Below, piece by piece: positions 847 to 8,011 of a DNA stretch of 10,110 nt. Source of the stretch: Nocardioides sp. (GTDB lineage: Bacteria > Actinomycetota > Actinomycetes > Propionibacteriales > Nocardioidaceae). The notes beneath the pieces were generated by a model. The model did no database searches. It was given only the letters and a program-made list of their open reading frames with translations, and was not told where the DNA came from. The number at the start of each line of letters is the position of its first letter. Positions within the stretch are counted from its first letter, which is position 1. The translations under genes and the position numbers were made by a program. The DNA lies in the NCBI GenBank assembly GCA_021166815.1, contig JAJPEO010000357.1:1-10110 (forward strand), in the 5' to 3' direction.

Positions 847-2055
847 TCAGCGACCCCCGATGAGGCTTCCCGGACGCACGGCGGCGCTGCCGAACCGCCG
901 CGTGGCCCGGTCGACGGCGCGATCGGCCTCGGGCCACCCGTGCTCGCGCTCACCGAGGACGAGCTGTCGCTGGGCTCCAGCCCTCGGCACCAGGCCCTCG
1001 ACGCGCACCCCCACCAGACGCAGCCGGGCCCGTTGCAGGCCGAGTGCGTCGTAGAGCCTGATGGCGGCTCGGTGGATCTCGACCGTGACATCGGTGGCCT
1101 CGGGCAGGGTGCGGGAACGGGTGATGGTCGTGAAGTCCGCGAAACGGATCCGGATCGTGATCGTCCGCCCGACCACGGAGGCCGCGCGCATGCGAGCCGC
1201 CACCTTCGCCGACAGCCGCATCAGCTCGCGCACGATCACCTCCCGGTCGTCGGTGTCACGCCCGAAGGTCTCGTCGGCTCCCATGGACCGCTCGGGCTCG
1301 TGCGGGCCGGCCCGGACCGCCAGCTCCTCGCGGTCATGGCCCCAGGCCAGGTCGTGCAGGTGCTGGCCGAGGTGGGGGCCCAACGCACGGCGCAAGGTCT
1401 CCACCGGGGTGTGGGCGAGATCCCCGACGCTCATCAGACCCAGCCGGTGGAGCTGGGCTCGCGTCTTCTCCCCCACTCCCCACAGCTCACCGACGTCGAG
1501 CGGGTGCAGGAACGACGTGACCTCGGCGGGATCGACCACCAGCACTCCGTCGGGCTTCGCCCTCCTGCTGGCGAGCTTGGCGACCGACACCGTCCGGGCG
1601 GCACCGACCGAGCAGCTGATGGCCTGCTCGTCGTGGATCGTCGAGCGCAGCCACTCCGCGATCTCCGCGGGGCCCCCGAGCCGACGTGCAGAACCACGCA
1701 CGTCGAGGAACGCCTCGTCGAGCGAGATCGCCTCCACCACCGGGGTGACCGCGCGAAACACCTCCATCACCGATCGCGACACGCTCGTGAAGGACTCGAA
1801 GTCGGGCGCCAGCACCACGACGTCGGGGCACAGTCGCCGGACCCGGGTCATCGGCATGGCCGAGCGGAGGCCGAACTGGCGCGCCACGTAGTTGGCCGCC
1901 AGGACCACCCCACGGCTGCCGCCGCCGACGACGACCGGTCGTCCGGCGAGCTCGGGACGGTCCCGGGTGGCGACGGAGGCGTAGAAGGCATCCATGTCCA
2001 CGTGCAGGATGGGCGTACGGATGTGGTCGTACGCGGTCCGGTCGGGCGTCACCAC
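847..2055 (-). CDS. dinB: DNA polymerase IV (Y-family translesion polymerase)
   Basis: This 402-residue protein is a normal-length Pol IV, a low-fidelity polymerase that extends primers across damaged DNA. The first metal-binding motif is HVDMDAFYASV (Asp20, with aromatic steric-gate residues Phe24/Tyr25). NYVARQFGLRSAMP follows, and the second catalytic motif is SLDEAFLDV (Asp113, Glu114). The thumb (AKLASRRAKPDG, then LWGVGEKTRAQL helix-hairpin-helix) and little finger (ETFGRDTDDREVIVREL, TITIRIRFADFTTITRS) are intact. A C-terminal QRQLVLG may be the sliding-clamp binding peptide. Two adjacent GTG codons (2055 and 2052) can start translation; the GGGAGG site is 4 or 7 nt away, which slightly favours 2052. 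The gene lies 21 bp after the methyltransferase gene and appears to be the last polymerase gene of the damage operon. Confidence 0.96.
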   Translation of the reverse strand: MVTPDRTAYDHIRTPILHVDMDAFYASVATRDRPELAGRPVVVGGGSRGVVLAANYVARQFGLRSAMPMTRVRRLCPDVVVLAPDFESFTSVSRSVMEVFRAVTPVVEAISLDEAFLDVRGSARRLGGPAEIAEWLRSTIHDEQAISCSVGAARTVSVAKLASRRAKPDGVLVVDPAEVTSFLHPLDVGELWGVGEKTRAQLHRLGLMSVGDLAHTPVETLRRALGPHLGQHLHDLAWGHDREELAVRAGPHEPERSMGADETFGRDTDDREVIVRELMRLSAKVAARMRAASVVGRTITIRIRFADFTTITRSRTLPEATDVTVEIHRAAIRLYDALGLQRARLRLVGVRVEGLVPRAGAQRQLVLGEREHGWPEADRAVDRATRRFGSAAVRPGSLIGGR

Positions 2056-2076
2056 GACGCCTCCCGCGGGAGTGCC

Positions 2077-2823
2077 TCAGGCGCGCGCGAGCACGTGGAG
2101 CTGGGTCGCCAGGGGGAGGTACTCGGGACGGGACGCCACGGCCCGTTCGAGCTCGACCAACGAGGCGGCCGCTCCCGGCTCCAGGTCGAGGAGGCTGCCC
2201 GGAACGAGGTCAGCGAAGACCCGCACCGCCTGGACCAGGGTGACCTCGAAGCCAGCGTCGGCGAGCAGGCCGGACACCTCCTGCTGGGTGAACCGGTGGC
2301 CACGACCGGAGGCCTGGGCGTCGCCGTCGAGCAGCTCGCGGGCGGCCTGGAAGTGCCCCGCCATCGCCCGTGCCACGACTGCGGCGTGGCGCTGGGCGAC
2401 CAACAGGCTGAGGTGGCCCCCCGACCGCAGCACCGAGGAGATCTGCTGCAGAGCAGCAGCGGGGTCATCGACCACCTCGAGGACCCCGTGGCACAGCACG
2501 AGGTCGGCGCTGTCGGCCTCGACCACCTCGGACAGGTCGGACAGGTCTCCCTGCTGGCCGGTGACGCGGTCGCCCACCCCACGCTCGGCGGCTCGGCGAT
2601 CGAGAGAGGCGAGCGCGTCGGGGCTGGGGTCGATGACGCGGACCCGGTGGCCCAGCTCGGCCAGCGGCACCGCGAACCCGCCGGTGCCCCCGCCGATGTC
2701 GATGATGTGCGCCTGCCGCTCCTGGAAGGCAACCGGGGCGTCGAGCACCCCCTGCAACCCGTCCCACACCACCCCGGTGCGGACCGACTGACGACGCTCG
2801 CTGGCAGAGGGATGACCCGGCAT
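2077..2823 (-). CDS. Class I SAM-dependent methyltransferase
   Basis: This 248-residue protein is a Rossmann-fold methyltransferase that uses S-adenosylmethionine; its substrate cannot be read from sequence. Motif I is IIDIGGGTGGFAVPLA (about 40-55), with the acidic ribose-binding Asp65 in VIDPSPDAL, then QGDLSDL (91-97) and the motif IV region DLVLCHGVLEVVDDP (107-121). A GGHLSLLV strand and the C-terminal GRGHRFTQQEV segment resemble the Methyltransf_11/UbiE-like group. The ATG at 2823 is supported by a TAGGGT hexamer 7 nt upstream, a leaderless arrangement, and by the lack of a clear ribosome site. It sits between dnaE2 (28 bp upstream) and dinB (21 bp downstream), which suggests cotranscription, but a direct role in repair is inference from context only. 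Confidence 0.88.
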   Translation of the reverse strand: MPGHPSASERRQSVRTGVVWDGLQGVLDAPVAFQERQAHIIDIGGGTGGFAVPLAELGHRVRVIDPSPDALASLDRRAAERGVGDRVTGQQGDLSDLSEVVEADSADLVLCHGVLEVVDDPAAALQQISSVLRSGGHLSLLVAQRHAAVVARAMAGHFQAARELLDGDAQASGRGHRFTQQEVSGLLADAGFEVTLVQAVRVFADLVPGSLLDLEPGAAASLVELERAVASRPEYLPLATQLHVLARA

Positions 2824-2830
2824 GGCGCCA

Positions 2831-2836
2831 ACCCTA
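2831..2836 (-). promoter_or_regulatory. Possible internal leaderless -10 (TAGGGT) for the methyltransferase and dinB
   Basis: On the minus strand TAGGGT stands 7 nt before the methyltransferase ATG, inside the 28-bp gap after dnaE2. Actinobacterial leaderless genes typically have a TAnnnT hexamer 6-7 nt before the start. If it is real, the methyltransferase and dinB can be expressed without the upstream SOS promoter. No -35 was identified. Confidence 0.45.
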
Positions 2837-2851
2837 GTGCGTCCCACCCGC

Positions 2852-5800
2852 TCATCCCGGGCTCCCGGGGCTGCGGTGCCACAACGTCCGCGAGGCGTGC
2901 TTGCCGGGATCGCCGGCTGGGCGGATGTCGGCGTACGGGGACATCCGGAAGCCGCTGCTGTGCACCAGCACCCGACGTCCGGAGGGCACGTCGGTGTCCG
3001 TGCGATCACTGCGCTCCATCTCGGCGTGCACGGCCGCCATGCCTGCCTCGGTGGTGGGCGCCTGCTGCCAGAGCGCGTGGAGGGCGGGCAGCTCCCAGGC
3101 GCCCGTGCCGAGCAGGGACACCCCGCGCGGTCCCGTACGGCGCAGCTCGCCACGCACCACCAGCAGCCAGGAGCCGAAGATCGTGCGGGCGTAGGGAGCC
3201 TGGGCGTCCTCGAAGAAGGTCACGTCGATCGGCCCGGTGCTGTCGTCGAGGGTCAGGAAGACGACCCGGCGACCTGAGCGCACAGGCGGCGTCTGGGTCG
3301 CGACCTTGACCCCGGCCACCAGCAGCTGGGCACGACTGCGTCGTGCCATGAGGTCGCGACTGCGCGTGACGCCCAGCGCGTCGAGGAACCCGGCGTAGGG
3401 AGCGACGGCGTGCTGGCTCACGTCGAGGCCCAGGATCTCGAGCTCGGCGCACATGCGCTCATGGCGGGTCATCTCCGGCAGGCCACTGGGCCGCTCGGTG
3501 GACCCGTCATCCAGCGGCAGTGTCAGCTGGACCGAGTCGGCGGGTCGCACCGGGAGCGATGAACGTGACTGTGCCGAGGCCCTGGCCCAGACCCCTGGCG
3601 GCGCGAGGGGATGCTGCTCGAGCGTCCCGGCGGCATTCCTGCTCACCGGGTCGGAGCTGTTGCGGGCGGTCGCGTCACCGGCCCGCTCGGTCGCCGCACG
3701 GACGACTCGTCGCGCCGCCACCCCCCGACCCCGGGCCCGCGAGGCCCGGTCGAGGGCCCGGGCGTGCAGGTCGAGGTCGGCCACCTGCAGCAACAGGTCA
3801 CGACGAGTGACCCGGTCTCGGGCATGCACCTCGTGCTCCCCCGCCCCGATGGCGTAGACCGAGTCGAAACCACCGGCCAGCACGAGTCGCTCGAGGACCG
3901 GCCGGCTGACCCTGGCCCGGTGGAAGAAGTCGGACAAGGAGGCGTACGGGGTCTCGCGCGCGGTGACGATCCGGTCGATCTCGGCCTCGCTGATGCCCTT
4001 GACGTCAGCGAGGCTGAGCCGGATGGCGTGCCCGGCGGCGTGGTGCTCACTGCGCTCGACGAGATAGGTGGCGGCGCTGGCGTTGACGTCGAGGCCGAGC
4101 ACACCCACCCCGAACTGGCGTGCGTCGTCGAGGATCAACCGCTTGGGGTACATGCCGGGGTCGTGGGTGAGCACGCCGGCCAGGAAGTGCGCCGGCCAGT
4201 GGGCCTTGAGCCAGGCGGACTGGTAGGTGGGCAGGGCGAACGCCGCGGCATGGGCCTTGCAGAACCCGAAGGAGGCGAAGGCCTCCAACACCTTCCACAC
4301 CTGCTCCACCAGGGACAGGTCGTAGCCACGACCCAGGGCGCGGGGGAAGAACCACCCTCGCGTCCGGGCCATCCCCTCGACGTCGCCCAGGGCCCGCCGC
4401 TTCTCGTCGGCCTCGGCGAAGGAGACCCCGGTGAACTGCGCGATGATCTCGATGACCTGCTCGTGGAAGACCACCACTCCCCGGGTCGACTCCAGGATCG
4501 GCCGGAGGTCGTCGTGGAGGTAGCGGACCGGCTTCCAGCCCTGCTTGGCCTCGAGGTAGGGGGTGATCATGTCGCTCTTGACCGGTCCCGGCCGGAACAG
4601 GGAGATGTCGGTGATGATCTCCTCGAAGTCCTCGATGCCGGACTTGCCGACCAGCTCACGCTGCCCCGGCGACTCGATCTGGAAGACGCCCAGCGTGCGG
4701 GCGTCGCTGATCATGTCGTAGGTCGTGGAGTCGTCGAAGGGCACCTGGGCCTCGTCGTCGAGGTCGATCTCCACGCCGTCCACCCGGGCGATCTCCCCCA
4801 CCGCGTGGGCCATGGCCGACTGCATGCGGATGCCGAGCACGTCGAGCTTGAGGAAGCCGAGGGCCTCGACGTCGTCCTTGTCGAACTGGCTCATCGGGTA
4901 GCCGGCGTAGGAGGCCTCCACGGGGGTCCGGTCGAGCAGGGTCGCGTCGGAGAGCAGCACACCGCAGGGGTGCATCGCGATGTGGCGGGGCAAGGCGTCA
5001 AGCCCCTCGACCAGCTCGAAGAAGCGGTCGAGCTCTCCCCCACCCCGGCCCACCAGGCCCACGCCCCGCAGCTCGGGGAGGTCACGCAGCGCCAGCCGGG
5101 CGTCGCGGGCACGGATGTGGGGGAACGCCTTGGCGAGGGCGTCGATCTCACCGGGCGGCATGCCCAGCGCTGCCCCCACGTCCCGGACGGCGTGGCGGAC
5201 GCGGTAGGTCTCCGTCATGGACACGCAGACGCACCGCTCGGCGCCGTAGCGGTCGAGGATCGCCTCGTAGACCTCCAGCCGTCGAGCCGACTCGACGTCG
5301 ATGTCGATGTCTGGCAACGACTTCCGCAGCGGCGAGAGGAAGCGCTCCATGAGCAGTCCGTGGCGGATGGGGTCGACCCCCGAGACCCCGAGCAGGTAGT
5401 TGACCAGGCTGCCGGCCCCCGATCCCCGGGCCGCGCGCCGGATGCCCATCTCCCCGATCAGGTCGGTGACGTCGGCGACGGTGAGGAAGTAGGAGGCGTA
5501 CCCCAGTGTCCTGATCGTCTCGAGCTCGTCGTCGAGGCGTTTCCAGATGCGCTGGCGCGGCGCCTGGCCGTAGCGCCACCCGATGGCCGCCTCGCAGCGC
5601 AACCGCAACGCCCGGTCGGCGTCGACAGCAGCGGTCCCCGCCTGGGTGAACTCGGGGAAGCGCACCTCGCCGAGGCCCAGGTCCGCGCGAGGGTCGAGGA
5701 AGCATCGCTCGGCCACCGTCCGCGTACGGGCCAGCAGGCGTCGCGCCTCGGAGGTGCTGTCGCCCGCCAGGCCGGCCAGCCGGCAGATCTCCTCGGCCAC

Positions 5801-6685
5801 CTCGTGCATCAGCTTGCCGGACTTGAGGAACCCCTCGGCGTTGCCCCGGGCCTCTCCCGGGCCGACGTGGCGCAGGTGGGCCGAACCGAGCGGCACCCGG
5901 CGACGCGCCGCGTCGAGCACGTCGATGACCGGCGCATCGAGACGGTCGGCATGGCGCACGGCGTTGGTGAGCACCGTCGACACCCCGGCCTGCCGGGCCA
6001 GCCCCATCATCCGCGCCGCGTGAGCCGAGGTGCCGGGACCCCAGCCCTGCGTCGTCGCGCCCAGCCGGTGGGAGACCAGCTCGACGACGAGGTTCTCCGG
6101 GGGCACCACCTCCCGCCACCGGTCGAGCACCTCGTGGGCGAGGTCGGCACGACGGTGGGTCACCAGCGCTCCCAGCTCTGAGGTGGGGCCGAGGAGGACC
6201 AGGACGTCACCTGAGGCCAGGTGGGGCCCCATCGCCTCGAGGGTGCCCACCGGGCGTCCCCGCTCACCGGAGAGGTGGGCCTCCGAGATCATCCGGCACA
6301 CCGCGGCCCATCCCGCGCCACCCTGCGCCAGCAGGGTCACCCGCGGCGCACCGCCCTCGCCGAGGGGGAGCTCGCGGACCGCTCCCCCGCGCACGGGCGT
6401 GCGGCGAGGCATGGACGTGCTGGCCCGCAGCCGCGCGGTGAGCGGCTCCACGGCGAGGTCGACTCCCAGCAGCGGCCTGATCCCGGCAGAGCGGCATGCC
6501 TGGACGAACTTCACCGCGCCGTAGGTGCCGTCACGGTCGGTCAGGGCGAGCGCGTCCATCTCGTGCTCCACCGCCTTCTCGACCAGCACGTGCGGGTGGG
6601 AGGCGCCGTACTGCATGGAGTAGCCGGAGGCGACGTGGAGATGGACGAACGGGTCAGGCGACACCGCTGCGATCCACCGGGACAT
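2852..6685 (-). CDS. dnaE2: Error-prone DNA polymerase DnaE2 (ImuC-type C-family polymerase)
   Basis: This 1277-residue C-family polymerase is of the type used for damage-induced mutagenic synthesis. In order it shows an N-terminal PHP domain beginning FVHLHVASGYS (about 13-23) with GASHPHVLVEKA, and the palm core GSGAGSLVNYLLG (421-433). The catalytic acidic cluster is LPDIDIDVESARR (457-469), the third Asp is in FLKLDVLG (Asp615), and the fingers hold RPGPVKSDMITPYLEAKQG and FHEQVIEIIAQFTG. A helix-hairpin-helix region and a basic, low-complexity linker lead to QLTLPL (about 1052-1057, clamp-binding-like) and a C-terminal OB fold (about 1118-1195). PHP motif II reads TDRDG instead of the usual TDHxx. 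The ATG at 6685 lies 32 nt inside the HEPN gene with no clear ribosome site; GTG at 6664 is an alternative start. No imuA' or imuB neighbour is present. Confidence 0.95.
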   Translation of the reverse strand: MSRWIAAVSPDPFVHLHVASGYSMQYGASHPHVLVEKAVEHEMDALALTDRDGTYGAVKFVQACRSAGIRPLLGVDLAVEPLTARLRASTSMPRRTPVRGGAVRELPLGEGGAPRVTLLAQGGAGWAAVCRMISEAHLSGERGRPVGTLEAMGPHLASGDVLVLLGPTSELGALVTHRRADLAHEVLDRWREVVPPENLVVELVSHRLGATTQGWGPGTSAHAARMMGLARQAGVSTVLTNAVRHADRLDAPVIDVLDAARRRVPLGSAHLRHVGPGEARGNAEGFLKSGKLMHEVAEEICRLAGLAGDSTSEARRLLARTRTVAERCFLDPRADLGLGEVRFPEFTQAGTAAVDADRALRLRCEAAIGWRYGQAPRQRIWKRLDDELETIRTLGYASYFLTVADVTDLIGEMGIRRAARGSGAGSLVNYLLGVSGVDPIRHGLLMERFLSPLRKSLPDIDIDVESARRLEVYEAILDRYGAERCVCVSMTETYRVRHAVRDVGAALGMPPGEIDALAKAFPHIRARDARLALRDLPELRGVGLVGRGGGELDRFFELVEGLDALPRHIAMHPCGVLLSDATLLDRTPVEASYAGYPMSQFDKDDVEALGFLKLDVLGIRMQSAMAHAVGEIARVDGVEIDLDDEAQVPFDDSTTYDMISDARTLGVFQIESPGQRELVGKSGIEDFEEIITDISLFRPGPVKSDMITPYLEAKQGWKPVRYLHDDLRPILESTRGVVVFHEQVIEIIAQFTGVSFAEADEKRRALGDVEGMARTRGWFFPRALGRGYDLSLVEQVWKVLEAFASFGFCKAHAAAFALPTYQSAWLKAHWPAHFLAGVLTHDPGMYPKRLILDDARQFGVGVLGLDVNASAATYLVERSEHHAAGHAIRLSLADVKGISEAEIDRIVTARETPYASLSDFFHRARVSRPVLERLVLAGGFDSVYAIGAGEHEVHARDRVTRRDLLLQVADLDLHARALDRASRARGRGVAARRVVRAATERAGDATARNSSDPVSRNAAGTLEQHPLAPPGVWARASAQSRSSLPVRPADSVQLTLPLDDGSTERPSGLPEMTRHERMCAELEILGLDVSQHAVAPYAGFLDALGVTRSRDLMARRSRAQLLVAGVKVATQTPPVRSGRRVVFLTLDDSTGPIDVTFFEDAQAPYARTIFGSWLLVVRGELRRTGPRGVSLLGTGAWELPALHALWQQAPTTEAGMAAVHAEMERSDRTDTDVPSGRRVLVHSSGFRMSPYADIRPAGDPGKHASRTLWHRSPGSPG

Positions 6686-7085
6686 GGGGCATCAGCCCCA
6701 ACGCCTGCTCGACGACGGCCAGGAACCGGTCGGCATCACGGACCAGGTCGTCCGCCTCACGCTCGCTGACGGCCCTGCTCGATCCGGCCTCGGCCGCTGC
6801 ACGCTTGGTGGCACCGGCGGCGAAGAACCGGGCCCACTCGGTGAGCTCGGGAGCCACCTCGGCCAGCAGCACCCAGGCGTTCTTCTGCCGACGCCCCCGA
6901 GGGGCCGGCCGGGCCCGGGCTGCCAGCAGCGCTGCTGCGGCACGCAGGGCCGAGACATGGGCGCAGGCGTAGCGGGTCGGCACGTCACGAGCCGTGATCG
7001 CCTCGTGCAGCGAGCCTGCCGAGCGCTCGAGGTAGGAGTGGGTCGTGGCCGGCAGGAGATGGGGTGATGAGTCGTGGAACGTCAT
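6654..7085 (-). CDS. SAV_6107-type HEPN domain protein
   Basis: This 143-residue, mostly helical small protein resembles the actinobacterial SAV_6107 HEPN family, often found beside dnaE2. Near the N-terminus SYLERSAGSLHEAITA is followed by RYACAHVSALRAAAALLAAR. Arg38 and His43 form an RX4H pattern of the kind that is catalytic in many HEPN ribonucleases. A basic segment (RARPAPRGRRQKNAW), the helix EVAPELTEWARFFAAGATKRAAAEAG and a C-terminal helix EREADDLVRDADRFLAVVEQALGL follow. Whether it cuts RNA is unknown; the family could be purely structural or a binding partner. It starts at ATG 7085 after a GAGGGG site, 9 bp after DUF6504, and its 3' end overlaps dnaE2 by 32 bp, implying coupled translation. 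Confidence 0.85.
   Translation of the reverse strand: MTFHDSSPHLLPATTHSYLERSAGSLHEAITARDVPTRYACAHVSALRAAAALLAARARPAPRGRRQKNAWVLLAEVAPELTEWARFFAAGATKRAAAEAGSSRAVSEREADDLVRDADRFLAVVEQALGLMPHVPVDRSGVA
6686..6699 (-). promoter_or_regulatory. Hairpin immediately before the dnaE2 ATG
   Basis: The bases directly upstream of the dnaE2 ATG read, on the minus strand, GGGGC TGAT GCCCC: a 5-bp stem with a 4-nt loop occupying the place where a ribosome site should be. It is inside the HEPN coding region. Ribosomes translating HEPN would melt it, consistent with translational coupling. It could also be a chance product of high GC. Confidence 0.35.
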
Positions 7086-7094
7086 CTCGCCCCC

Positions 7095-7385
7095 TCAGTC
7101 CGCGCAGCCGACGAGCTGCCAGCAGCCGTCGGTCCAGTCGAAGGACAGGTCGAACACCCCGGCCACGTCGAGACCGAGCAGGTCGCGACCTCGTGCCGCC
7201 TCCACCCGCCAGAGCTCGCGTTCGGCCACCGGGTCGCCCGATCCCGCCTCCTGCCACCACGGCCGGGTCTCCACCCAGTGGGCCAGCACCGCCCGGACCT
7301 TCCACAACCGGCCCCGCCACAGGAACTGCTCGGGCCCCTCGCTCTCGCCTCGTCGCACCTCGACGGGGTCGTCGTACTGCCTCAT
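7095..7385 (-). CDS. DUF6504 family protein
   Basis: This 96-residue soluble protein matches the actinobacterial DUF6504 family in its opening (YDDPVEVRRG) and the core EQFLWRGRLWKVRAVLAHWVE, followed by a Trp-rich middle and end (PWWQEAG, ELWRVEA, DLSFDWTDGCWQLVG). Eight tryptophans in 96 residues is a high density and suggests a compact beta-rich fold. The family has no established function, but its members are commonly encoded beside translesion polymerases. The ATG at 7385 is supported by AGGAGG 4 nt upstream. It is the first gene of the damage operon, preceded by the SOS box and a structured leader, and followed after 9 bp by the HEPN gene. Confidence 0.85.
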   Translation of the reverse strand: MRQYDDPVEVRRGESEGPEQFLWRGRLWKVRAVLAHWVETRPWWQEAGSGDPVAERELWRVEAARGRDLLGLDVAGVFDLSFDWTDGCWQLVGCAD

Positions 7386-7405
7386 CGCGCCTCCTGAACG
7401 CTCCG

Positions 7406-7464
7406 TCGACCCCGGAACGGCTCAGGTGGTCGGTGGGGGTCGAGGTCACCGCCACCTGAGCCGT
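7406..7464 (-). promoter_or_regulatory. Structured 5' leader: long hairpin with potential pseudoknot before DUF6504
   Basis: Bases 7417-7429 (ACGGCTCAGGTGG) and 7452-7464 (CCACCTGAGCCGT) are perfect 13-bp inverted repeats. One bulged base further in, 7431-7435 (CGGTG) pairs with 7447-7451 (CACCG), giving an 18-bp stem with an 11-nt loop. Part of the loop (7436-7443, GGGGTCGA) is perfectly complementary to 7406-7413 (TCGACCCC), between the hairpin and the ribosome site at 7390-7395. The minus-strand leader RNA could therefore form a pseudoknot close to the DUF6504 start. No U-tract follows, so a classical terminator is less likely than a translational control element or RNA stability element. 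I know of no described RNA family it matches. Confidence 0.65.
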
Positions 7465-7466
7465 GA

Positions 7467-7482
7467 TCGAACAAGTGTTCGA
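7467..7482 (-). promoter_or_regulatory. LexA SOS box
   Basis: TCGAAC AAGT GTTCGA is a perfect palindromic match to the actinobacterial/Gram-positive LexA operator (TCGAAC-N4-GTTCGA). It lies 82 bp upstream of the DUF6504 start, just downstream of the putative -10, so bound LexA would cover the transcription start. The only genes it could serve are the minus-strand operon of DUF6504, HEPN, dnaE2, the methyltransferase and dinB, since no plus-strand gene begins for another 575 bp. Confidence 0.92.
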
Positions 7483-7491
7483 ACACCCCGA

Positions 7492-7522
7492 ACGGTACTA
7501 CCTCGCACCGACAGTGCGTCAA
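7492..7522 (-). promoter_or_regulatory. Putative damage promoter of the dnaE2 operon (PafBC-type match)
   Basis: On the minus strand, CTGTCGGTG (7514-7506), an 8-nt spacer and TACCGT (7497-7492) match the PafBC-dependent RecA-independent damage promoter TTGTCRGTG-N8-TAnnnT in every fixed position except the first T. An overlapping alternative is an ordinary sigma-A-like pair, TTGACG (7522-7517), a 16-bp spacer and TAGTAC (7500-7495). Either would start transcription near 7485, at the SOS box, leaving a leader of about 100 nt. Confidence 0.7.
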
Positions 7523-7543
7523 GAGCGCACGGAAAGCTGTGGA

Positions 7544-8011
7544 TCACACCTCGCGCAGGTACGCGGAGGTGTCCTTGCGCCACAGGAAGAACACCTGGGC
7601 GACGCTCAGCACGAGCAGCACCCCGGCCAGCACGTCGAAGACCGGCGGCAGGTCGTTGACCAGGCAGGTCACCGCCACCAGCACCGCCGTCAGCGCGTTG
7701 GCCAGGAGCATCACCCGGGCCCAGCCGTGCCCGCCGGCGAGGAACGCGTGGAGCACGAGCGCGAGCAGCGCCAGGATGCTCCAGGCCACCACGGCGATCG
7801 CCACGAAGTCCGGGGCGCTGTCGCTGGCCCGCAGCGCCTCGATGCCGCCGTCCTGGAGCGTCGTCTGCGCCGACGGGTTGCCGGCAGCCCAGGCCAGCAG
7901 CAGGTCGTCGCTGCGCCACCAGGTCAGCACCGTGATCACGGCCGCGACCGCGACCGTCGCCCACATCACCCGGAGACTGTTGACGACCGATCCGGGCAGC
8001 TGGCGTGCCAT
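7544..8011 (-). CDS. Four-helix membrane protein of unknown function
   Basis: This 155-residue protein is not one I recognise. It has four predicted membrane helices at about 13-32, 68-92, 98-118 and 123-144. A short extracytoplasmic-looking loop between helices 1 and 2 contains NPSAQTTLQDGGIEALRASDSAPD, and the short hydrophilic tail is WRKDTSAYLREV. No catalytic motif is visible. The start ATG at 8011 has a GAGGAA site 5 nt upstream. It is divergent from the YbaK gene across a 47-bp gap. Its stop is about 20 bp before the damage promoter, with no obvious terminator, so weak read-through into the repair operon is possible. Confidence 0.8.
   Translation of the reverse strand: MARQLPGSVVNSLRVMWATVAVAAVITVLTWWRSDDLLLAWAAGNPSAQTTLQDGGIEALRASDSAPDFVAIAVVAWSILALLALVLHAFLAGGHGWARVMLLANALTAVLVAVTCLVNDLPPVFDVLAGVLLVLSVAQVFFLWRKDTSAYLREV

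Follow-up and report, generated by a model that had tools for sequence, protein, structure and literature searches.

The window, by which we mean the whole 10,110-base stretch of Nocardioides DNA that was analysed, carries on its minus strand a DUF6504 gene followed by a HEPN gene and a gene for a dnaE2-type polymerase (Table 1). The name dnaE2 for the last of these is putative, based on its genomic setting in the operon and on the SOS box. Upstream of DUF6504 the nearest open frame, at 7544-8011, is without a Pfam match, and in the 158 bases up to that frame lie, in order, TTGACG, a PafBC-type motif, an SOS box, a hairpin that we call H1, its candidate partner P2, the ribosome site AGGAGG and the ATG start codon of DUF6504 (7385-7383, minus strand). 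Behind dnaE2, a methyltransferase frame overlaps the end of the polymerase gene and precedes a DinB-type polymerase gene (847-2055), both on the same strand (window 847-3153), so that the mutagenesis operon may be longer than three genes. Records matched by the DUF6504 protein of the window are mostly from Nocardioides. No paper on DUF6504 was found in the open-licence literature.

Table 1. Features of the putative damage-induced operon and its leader, in window coordinates.
Feature	Position	Strand	Basis
TTGACG, promoter -35-like element	7517..7522	(-)	read in sequence; CTTGAC in most relatives listed
PafBC-type element TGTCGG-N10-TACCGT	7492..7513	(-)	fits TGTCGG-N10-TA-N3-T of PMC8151990
SOS box (LexA operator) TCGAACACTTGTTCGA	7467..7482	(-)	letters checked
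H1 hairpin, 18 bp, one bulged A (7430)	7417..7464	(-)	fold and covariation in 85 relatives
H1 loop ACCUCGACCCC, nearly invariant	7436..7446	(-)	leader counts
P2, GGGGUCGA, complementary to UCGACCCC of H1 loop	7406..7413	(-)	letters; leader counts
Ribosome site AGGAGG	7390..7395	(-)	read and checked in letters
DUF6504 protein, 96 aa, operon gene 1	7095..7385	(-)	PF20114, E 3.3e-20
SAV_6107-like HEPN protein, 143 aa, R-X4-H motif RYACAH	6654..7085	(-)	PF18726, E 6.8e-35; motif read
dnaE2-type DNA polymerase III alpha subunit, 1277 aa (putative)	2852..6685	(-)	PF07733, PF17657, PF02811, PF14579

The sequence in front of H1 gives clues to when the leader would be made. The PafBC motif, as given in PMC8151990, is TGTCGG-N10-TA-N3-T, and the form TGTCNG-N10-TANNNT is present in 73 of the 85 aligned relatives (0.2 expected by shuffles), where it sits 7-11 nt before the SOS box. 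An SOS box of the LexA type lies at most 160 nt upstream of the hairpin in all 85. The window itself has both the SOS box near the promoter that marks the LexA (SOS) regulon (7467-7482) and the promoter motif of the PafBC regulon (7513-7492), and both DNA-damage systems appear to control the operon, with a PafBC-type promoter adjoining the SOS box. If TACCGT serves as the -10 element, the predicted transcription start lies at about 7485 and H1 would begin about 20 nt into the mRNA. Given the SOS box upstream in 85 of 85 relatives and the PafBC-type motif in 73, H1 is probably transcribed; a start downstream of 7417 is unlikely because the conserved PafBC-type promoter lies upstream of the SOS box. 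Mycobacterial PafBC/LexA promoters share both the motif (PMC8151990) and an SOS box with the window, but no leader RNA is described for them in the accessible passages. The dual PafBC and SOS site before dnaE2 in Nocardioides is known here from sequence only.

Read along the minus strand, H1 consists of the 5' arm ACGGCTCAGGTGG (7464-7452), CGGTG (7451-7447), the loop ACCTCGACCCC (7446-7436), CACCG (7435-7431), the bulged A and the 3' arm CCACCTGAGCCGT (7429-7417). A sequence-only reading of this DNA had described an 18-bp stem with one bulge, made of 13-bp arms extended by CGGTG/CACCG, and these letters are where it placed them. It had also matched the loop to a stretch just before the ribosome site, and GGGGTCGA at 7413-7406 indeed complements the loop letters TCGACCCC without a mismatch; the loop letters it gave, GGGGTCGA, are those of the plus strand and so the complement of the RNA loop. 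Its judgement that the arrangement is unlikely by chance agrees with our searches, in which H1 was the only perfect inverted repeat in the window with arms of at least 12 and a spacer of at most 30, and no such repeat arose in 20 dinucleotide shuffles. The computed folding energy of the minus-strand leader is -57.4 kcal/mol (z -3.9, matched by 1 of 200 shuffles), with -34.9 kcal/mol for H1 alone and -15.7 kcal/mol for the duplex between the loop and GGGGUCGA. A plus-strand reading of the leader was set aside on its weaker fold (z -1.9; 10 of 200 shuffles as good); the leader belongs to the minus strand. An upstream open reading frame from the GUG in GGUGACC was likewise rejected, since 32 of 85 hairpins have C-G in place of the base pair that forms the GUG.

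The same reading had named covariation in related leaders as the check on its structured leader RNA, and for the hairpin this check came out strongly positive. Near-identical leaders and matches without an SOS box were left out of the alignment, which has 85 rows. Across it, 94.5% of the cells of the H1 stem are paired and two-sided changes occur in 15 of 16 pairs, in an alignment that was made to a covariance model and fitted to the tested structure. Double-change cells number 271 (73.7 when shuffled) and the covariation score is 0.580 (0.207 when shuffled; at most 0.132 for slid structures), and none of 500 shuffles reached H1 on any covariation measure, these controls ignoring shared ancestry. 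RNAalifold on the same alignment returned a closely similar stem with two-sided changes in 13 of 14 pairs. Three pairs are nearly constant (G-C in 83, 80 and 82 of the 85) while the others vary widely, so the stem is not wholly free. The loop, ACCUCGACCCC in RNA, recurs unchanged in 58 of 72 leaders, and its core UCGACC (TCGACC in DNA) is found in all 72. A stem that varies around a loop that is kept argues for recognition of the RNA loop. Judged by the compensatory stem changes and the near-invariant loop, H1 is an RNA element rather than a protein-binding DNA palindrome, and the covarying stem supports a structured leader RNA before the dnaE2 operon.

We searched for H1 with two covariance models, R1 (built from 39 leaders) and R2 (from 85 hairpins); f1 denotes the family of the window, and f2, f12 and so on denote other actinobacterial families. 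Leader DNA of the window was matched in 87 of 198 f1 genomes, some by short matches only, and R1 matched in 84 of the 198. A HEPN gene lies 135 to 962 bases from the R1 match, by the listed coordinates, in 82 of these 84 genomes. The remaining two matches (L135, L136) and the second places found in four f1 genomes (L138-L141) have no SOS box in the preceding 160 nt, and genuine H1 copies in f1, as far as neighbouring sequence identifies them, all precede this operon. At L138 (G230:C7:11150-11182), away from the operon, stands a perfect hairpin that has the same loop. A dispersed repeat of the REP or MITE type was rejected, as H1 occupies one place in the genome of the window and 80 of the 84 matched f1 genomes have a single match. 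Among named records, R1 matched on the leader strand in 57 of 75 DUF6504 loci, e.g., in Nocardioides szechwanensis, N. alpinus and N. cavernae.

Beyond the family, R1 matched 61 of 245 genomes in the order sample, 8 of them f2, and R2 matched 52 of 394 genomes in the class sample at E up to 0.01. Fourteen R2 loci outside f1 were read (L165-L178): an SOS box and an operon gene mark seven as genuine, and seven without an SOS box were set aside (L166, L168, L170, L171, L175, L177, L178). Locus reading left out 27 class-sample matches, 25 with E above 1e-3 plus the second places of genomes G172 and G430. A phylum sample of 198 gave four matches at E up to 0.001, of which the window itself is the only genuine one; the other three (L324-L326) are without an SOS box, overlap long open frames and were set aside. 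Matches to R1 or R2 in whole genomes thus come from f1, f2, f12, f28 and f34. A script reading the loop core found it in 24 of 46 DUF6504 leaders outside f1, from 11 families. Applied to the same 46 leaders with an E cut-off of 0.01, R2 detected leader-strand H1 in 19 (best 9.7e-7), all within the 24 of the script, and at that threshold it misses five of them (L179, L182, L206, L207, L218). The R2-positive leaders come from f11, f12, f24, f26, f28, f31 and f37, which adds f11, f24, f26, f31 and f37 to the whole-genome families, so that H1 is found by model in ten actinobacterial families (with f34 represented by L174), and the script alone adds f9, f10, f36 and f43. Leader L219 has an R2 match, yet its stem measures only 2 bp by the crude script; no SOS box was found for L223; and L202 (f28) has two H1-like loops within one leader.

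The genes behind the leader were scanned with Pfam in the nine f2 genomes with an H1 leader. These are DUF6504 and a PHP domain in L145, HEPN in L147, L149 and L165 (and nearby in L146), a methyltransferase and a DinB-type frame behind an SOS-plus-H1 leader in L142, a methyltransferase behind such a leader in L144, ribosomal L21/L27 in L143, where the SOS box is imperfect, and a DUF4245 gene in L148. The four leaders before other genes (L142, L143, L144, L148) indicate that outside f1 the leader is not confined to a single operon, and the idea that H1 stands only before the dnaE2 operon was dropped on their account. Its place before methyltransferase genes suggests a module of SOS genes; ribosomal L21/L27 and DUF4245 fit a mutagenesis module poorly, and as a guess the L143 leader may be left over from a lost operon. 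Within f1, HEPN is the first gene and H1 is kept in six leaders (L055, L092, L096, L111, L122, L124), and DUF6504 was not found in genomes G166, G055 and G087.

H1 can also be missing where the operon remains. Of 121 f1 genomes with HEPN, 39 are without an R1 match. We read 20 of these 39 leaders: 19 have the SOS box, 18 of them lack the H1 loop, and in the last, L319, the hairpin is there but its loop is altered. H1 therefore seems dispensable, an accessory control that has been lost in these genomes. Leaders L316 and L300 have a hairpin with a different loop in the place of H1.

The second complementarity of the sequence-only reading, between the loop and P2, was counted in 72 leaders, after 13 of the 85 had been dropped because the start was missing or doubtful. 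Downstream of H1 there are 64 copies of GGGGTCG in these leaders versus 4.6 expected from shuffles, and in 57 of the 64 the base facing the first U of the loop is A or G and can pair. The copies are spread over 43 leaders, 17 of which have at least two, and 29 have none. GGGGTCG accompanies H1 in 43 of 72 leaders, compared to 3 of 21 without a model match (L183, L319, L321; p 3e-4, Fisher, with related leaders counted as independent). Sixteen of the 72 leaders have no downstream pairing to the loop of at least 6, namely 10 of 58 with the main loop and 6 of 14 with a variant one. The loop half of this helix is too invariant to carry covariation. Sixty leaders contain GGGGTC or GGGTCG. The connector from stem to partner measures 0-6 nt in 18 of them, 7-12 nt in 21 and more in 21; the full range is 0-119 nt, set against a robust stem of up to 15 layers. 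A connector of 0-6 nt is too short to span up to 15 bp, so the foot of the stem would need to open, and in such compact leaders there is, as far as lengths can tell, hardly room for the second helix beside a complete stem.

The proposed pseudoknot thus stands in part. The strong enrichment of its partner is real, but the partner is missing from 29 of 72 leaders, persists in 3 of 21 without a model match and implies steric strain in compact leaders; we have demoted a simple H-type pseudoknot as the whole story on these grounds. P2 may instead pair once the fold has rearranged, pair with a different molecule, or serve some additional role. What the leader shares with H-type pseudoknot and kissing-loop translational regulators is complementarity between its hairpin loop and G-rich letters further downstream, close to the ribosome site. 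Unlike in those regulators, the partner here is not universal, and compared with an H-type pseudoknot the stem is long for the short connector of compact leaders unless its foot opens. A different fold is conceivable in four leaders from f17 and a Frankiaceae record (L216, L222, L225, L303), whose GGGGAAG can also pair with a CTTCC immediately before it.

Leaders outside f1 hold further elements. A second hairpin, H2, with the loop UGGGGAAG, is present in 16 of the 46 non-f1 leaders; over 20 windows its stem covaries, with 81% paired (shuffled maximum 67.5%) and 40 double changes (maximum 26). H3, a CUUCCCC element found in 20 of the 46 leaders and in many of them on a short stem, gave 75.9% paired over 18 windows (shuffled maximum 73.1%) and 15 double changes against a shuffled maximum of 16, which lends its stem weak support. 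H2 and H3 are complementary over 7 nt and occur together: 15 leaders have both, one has H2 only, five have H3 only and 25 have neither (p 4e-7, relatedness ignored). Leaders L181, L182, L188, L189, L206, L210, L212, L218 and L219 combine the H2 loop with a downstream complementary CUUCCCC, and f20 and f17 leaders have H3 without H1, those of f17 with H2 as well. A recurring loop YUCGCGG is called H0; small hairpin-like stretches with UUCGCGG or CUCGCGG lie between the SOS box and H1 in L142, L144, L147, L165, L127, L130, L190, L192 and L214. The window has a compact leader, comprising H1 and a single partner, without CUUCCCC.

The mraW RNA motif has a CUUCCCC terminal loop, which resembles H3. 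That motif (RF01746, Actinomycetales) is likewise an actinobacterial cis-regulatory candidate, but belongs to other genes, and the window leader lacks CUUCCCC. It is listed in PMC2864571, in the accessible part of which the word CUUCCCC is absent. Rfam gave no matches in the window up to E 1, and four in 27 loci of relatives, all to unrelated families far below the cut-offs and none to mraW.

Our main reading, which we put at a probability of roughly 0.62, is that H1 is the core of a cis-acting leader RNA that tunes the translation or stability of damage-induced mutagenesis mRNAs. DNA damage would induce the LexA-controlled and mostly PafBC-type promoter, and the leader would be transcribed and fold, presenting the H1 loop as a recognition surface. 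The loop may bind a protein, pair with the G-rich partner that shortly precedes the ribosome site (here GGGGUCGA), or do both; elsewhere a UGGGGAAG loop would face the CUUCCCC element. The pairing or the bound protein could then set the loading of the 30S subunit on the mRNA, or the lifetime of the mRNA, as repression or as activation. From the sequence we infer a post-transcriptional control of the operon. A bolder version, possible but held only tentatively, would make these leaders an actinobacteria-wide multi-hairpin family in which the complementary loops (ACCUCGACCCC/GGGGUCGA and UGGGGAAG/CUUCCCC) form a loop-pairing switch, a portable SOS RNA module before dnaE2 operons, methyltransferase-dinB genes and a few other genes, which would limit or time error-prone repair after LexA and PafBC open the promoter.

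H1 might merely shield the 5' end of the mRNA from degradation, with other reasons for the loop and P2. A stem of -34.9 kcal/mol about 20 bases after the predicted start would suit this role, and so would the fact that H1 can be lost, but a protective stem has no need of a near-invariant 11-nt loop, and we consider this explanation unlikely.

Quite unlikely, too, is that H1 serves as the binding site for a protein of the operon itself, foremost HEPN, in a negative feedback to which GGGGUCGA would be secondary. HEPN proteins are often ribonucleases or RNA binders, and R-X4-H is a motif of HEPN ribonucleases. The motif is kept in HEPN copies across 130 loci, with none showing the start signature without the pattern, although the pattern itself required R and H. 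A loop that hardly varies on a stem that does is what protein recognition typically leaves, and HEPN adjoins the leader in all 82 f1 genomes with a genuine R1 match, also where it is the first gene. Against this, five of the nine f2 genomes with an H1 leader have no HEPN match (G397, G332, G391, G386, G330), a result on which we demoted HEPN as a dedicated H1 binder. HEPN is also present in the 39 of 121 f1 genomes without an R1 match and in most genomes of other families whose leaders lack H1; in four f20 genomes it lies on a different contig from DUF6504.

The sequence-only reading had offered a DNA palindrome or an attenuator as alternatives, and both fare poorly. An element acting at the DNA level could be the operator of a further regulator, as an inverted repeat or through multiple GGGGTCGA sites, or a cruciform. 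One factor could bind both GGGGTCGA and, in the opposite orientation, its complement in the loop; GGGGTCG is present at least twice in 17 of 72 leaders, and in a few leaders it is present without H1. A palindrome read by protein would, however, keep the letters of its arms, whereas those of H1 vary jointly; the distance from stem to partner ranges from 0 to 119 nt and the GGGGTCG copies are irregularly spaced, all of which makes a DNA element very improbable. An intrinsic attenuator or terminator before the operon, for which a strong GC-rich hairpin in the leader would speak, can be dismissed almost entirely, as no terminator-like site (a stem followed by a T run) was found in 7200-7700.

The cis-acting leader RNA of our main reading has precedents in other settings. 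Control of the tisB/istR-1 type works by a leader/standby mechanism. In the accessible part of the literature, tisB/istR-1 and dinQ/agrB of E. coli are LexA-controlled toxin mRNAs with control at the RNA level, and so combine, as is proposed here, transcriptional control by LexA with a step on the RNA. They are toxin genes with antisense RNAs in enterobacteria, whereas the window holds a polymerase operon in actinobacteria. The claim of novelty in the sequence-only reading is accordingly narrowed: RNA control of LexA genes was already known from tisB/istR-1 and dinQ, but the open-licence literature gave no description of a leader RNA preceding an operon for a translesion polymerase, and such a leader is new to it. 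We regard the candidate as a previously undescribed structured leader RNA family at a new site.

The elements are short and clear, and the two sets of loops and partners lend themselves to exact compensatory tests. Error-prone polymerases rank among the main causes of induced mutation, and accounts of their regulation usually centre on transcription, by LexA and, in mycobacteria, by PafBC. The conserved leader points to an undescribed RNA control step on top of these known DNA-damage switches in many actinobacteria. A leader RNA kept across many actinobacterial families suggests that an RNA-level brake or accelerator on mutagenesis may have been missed.
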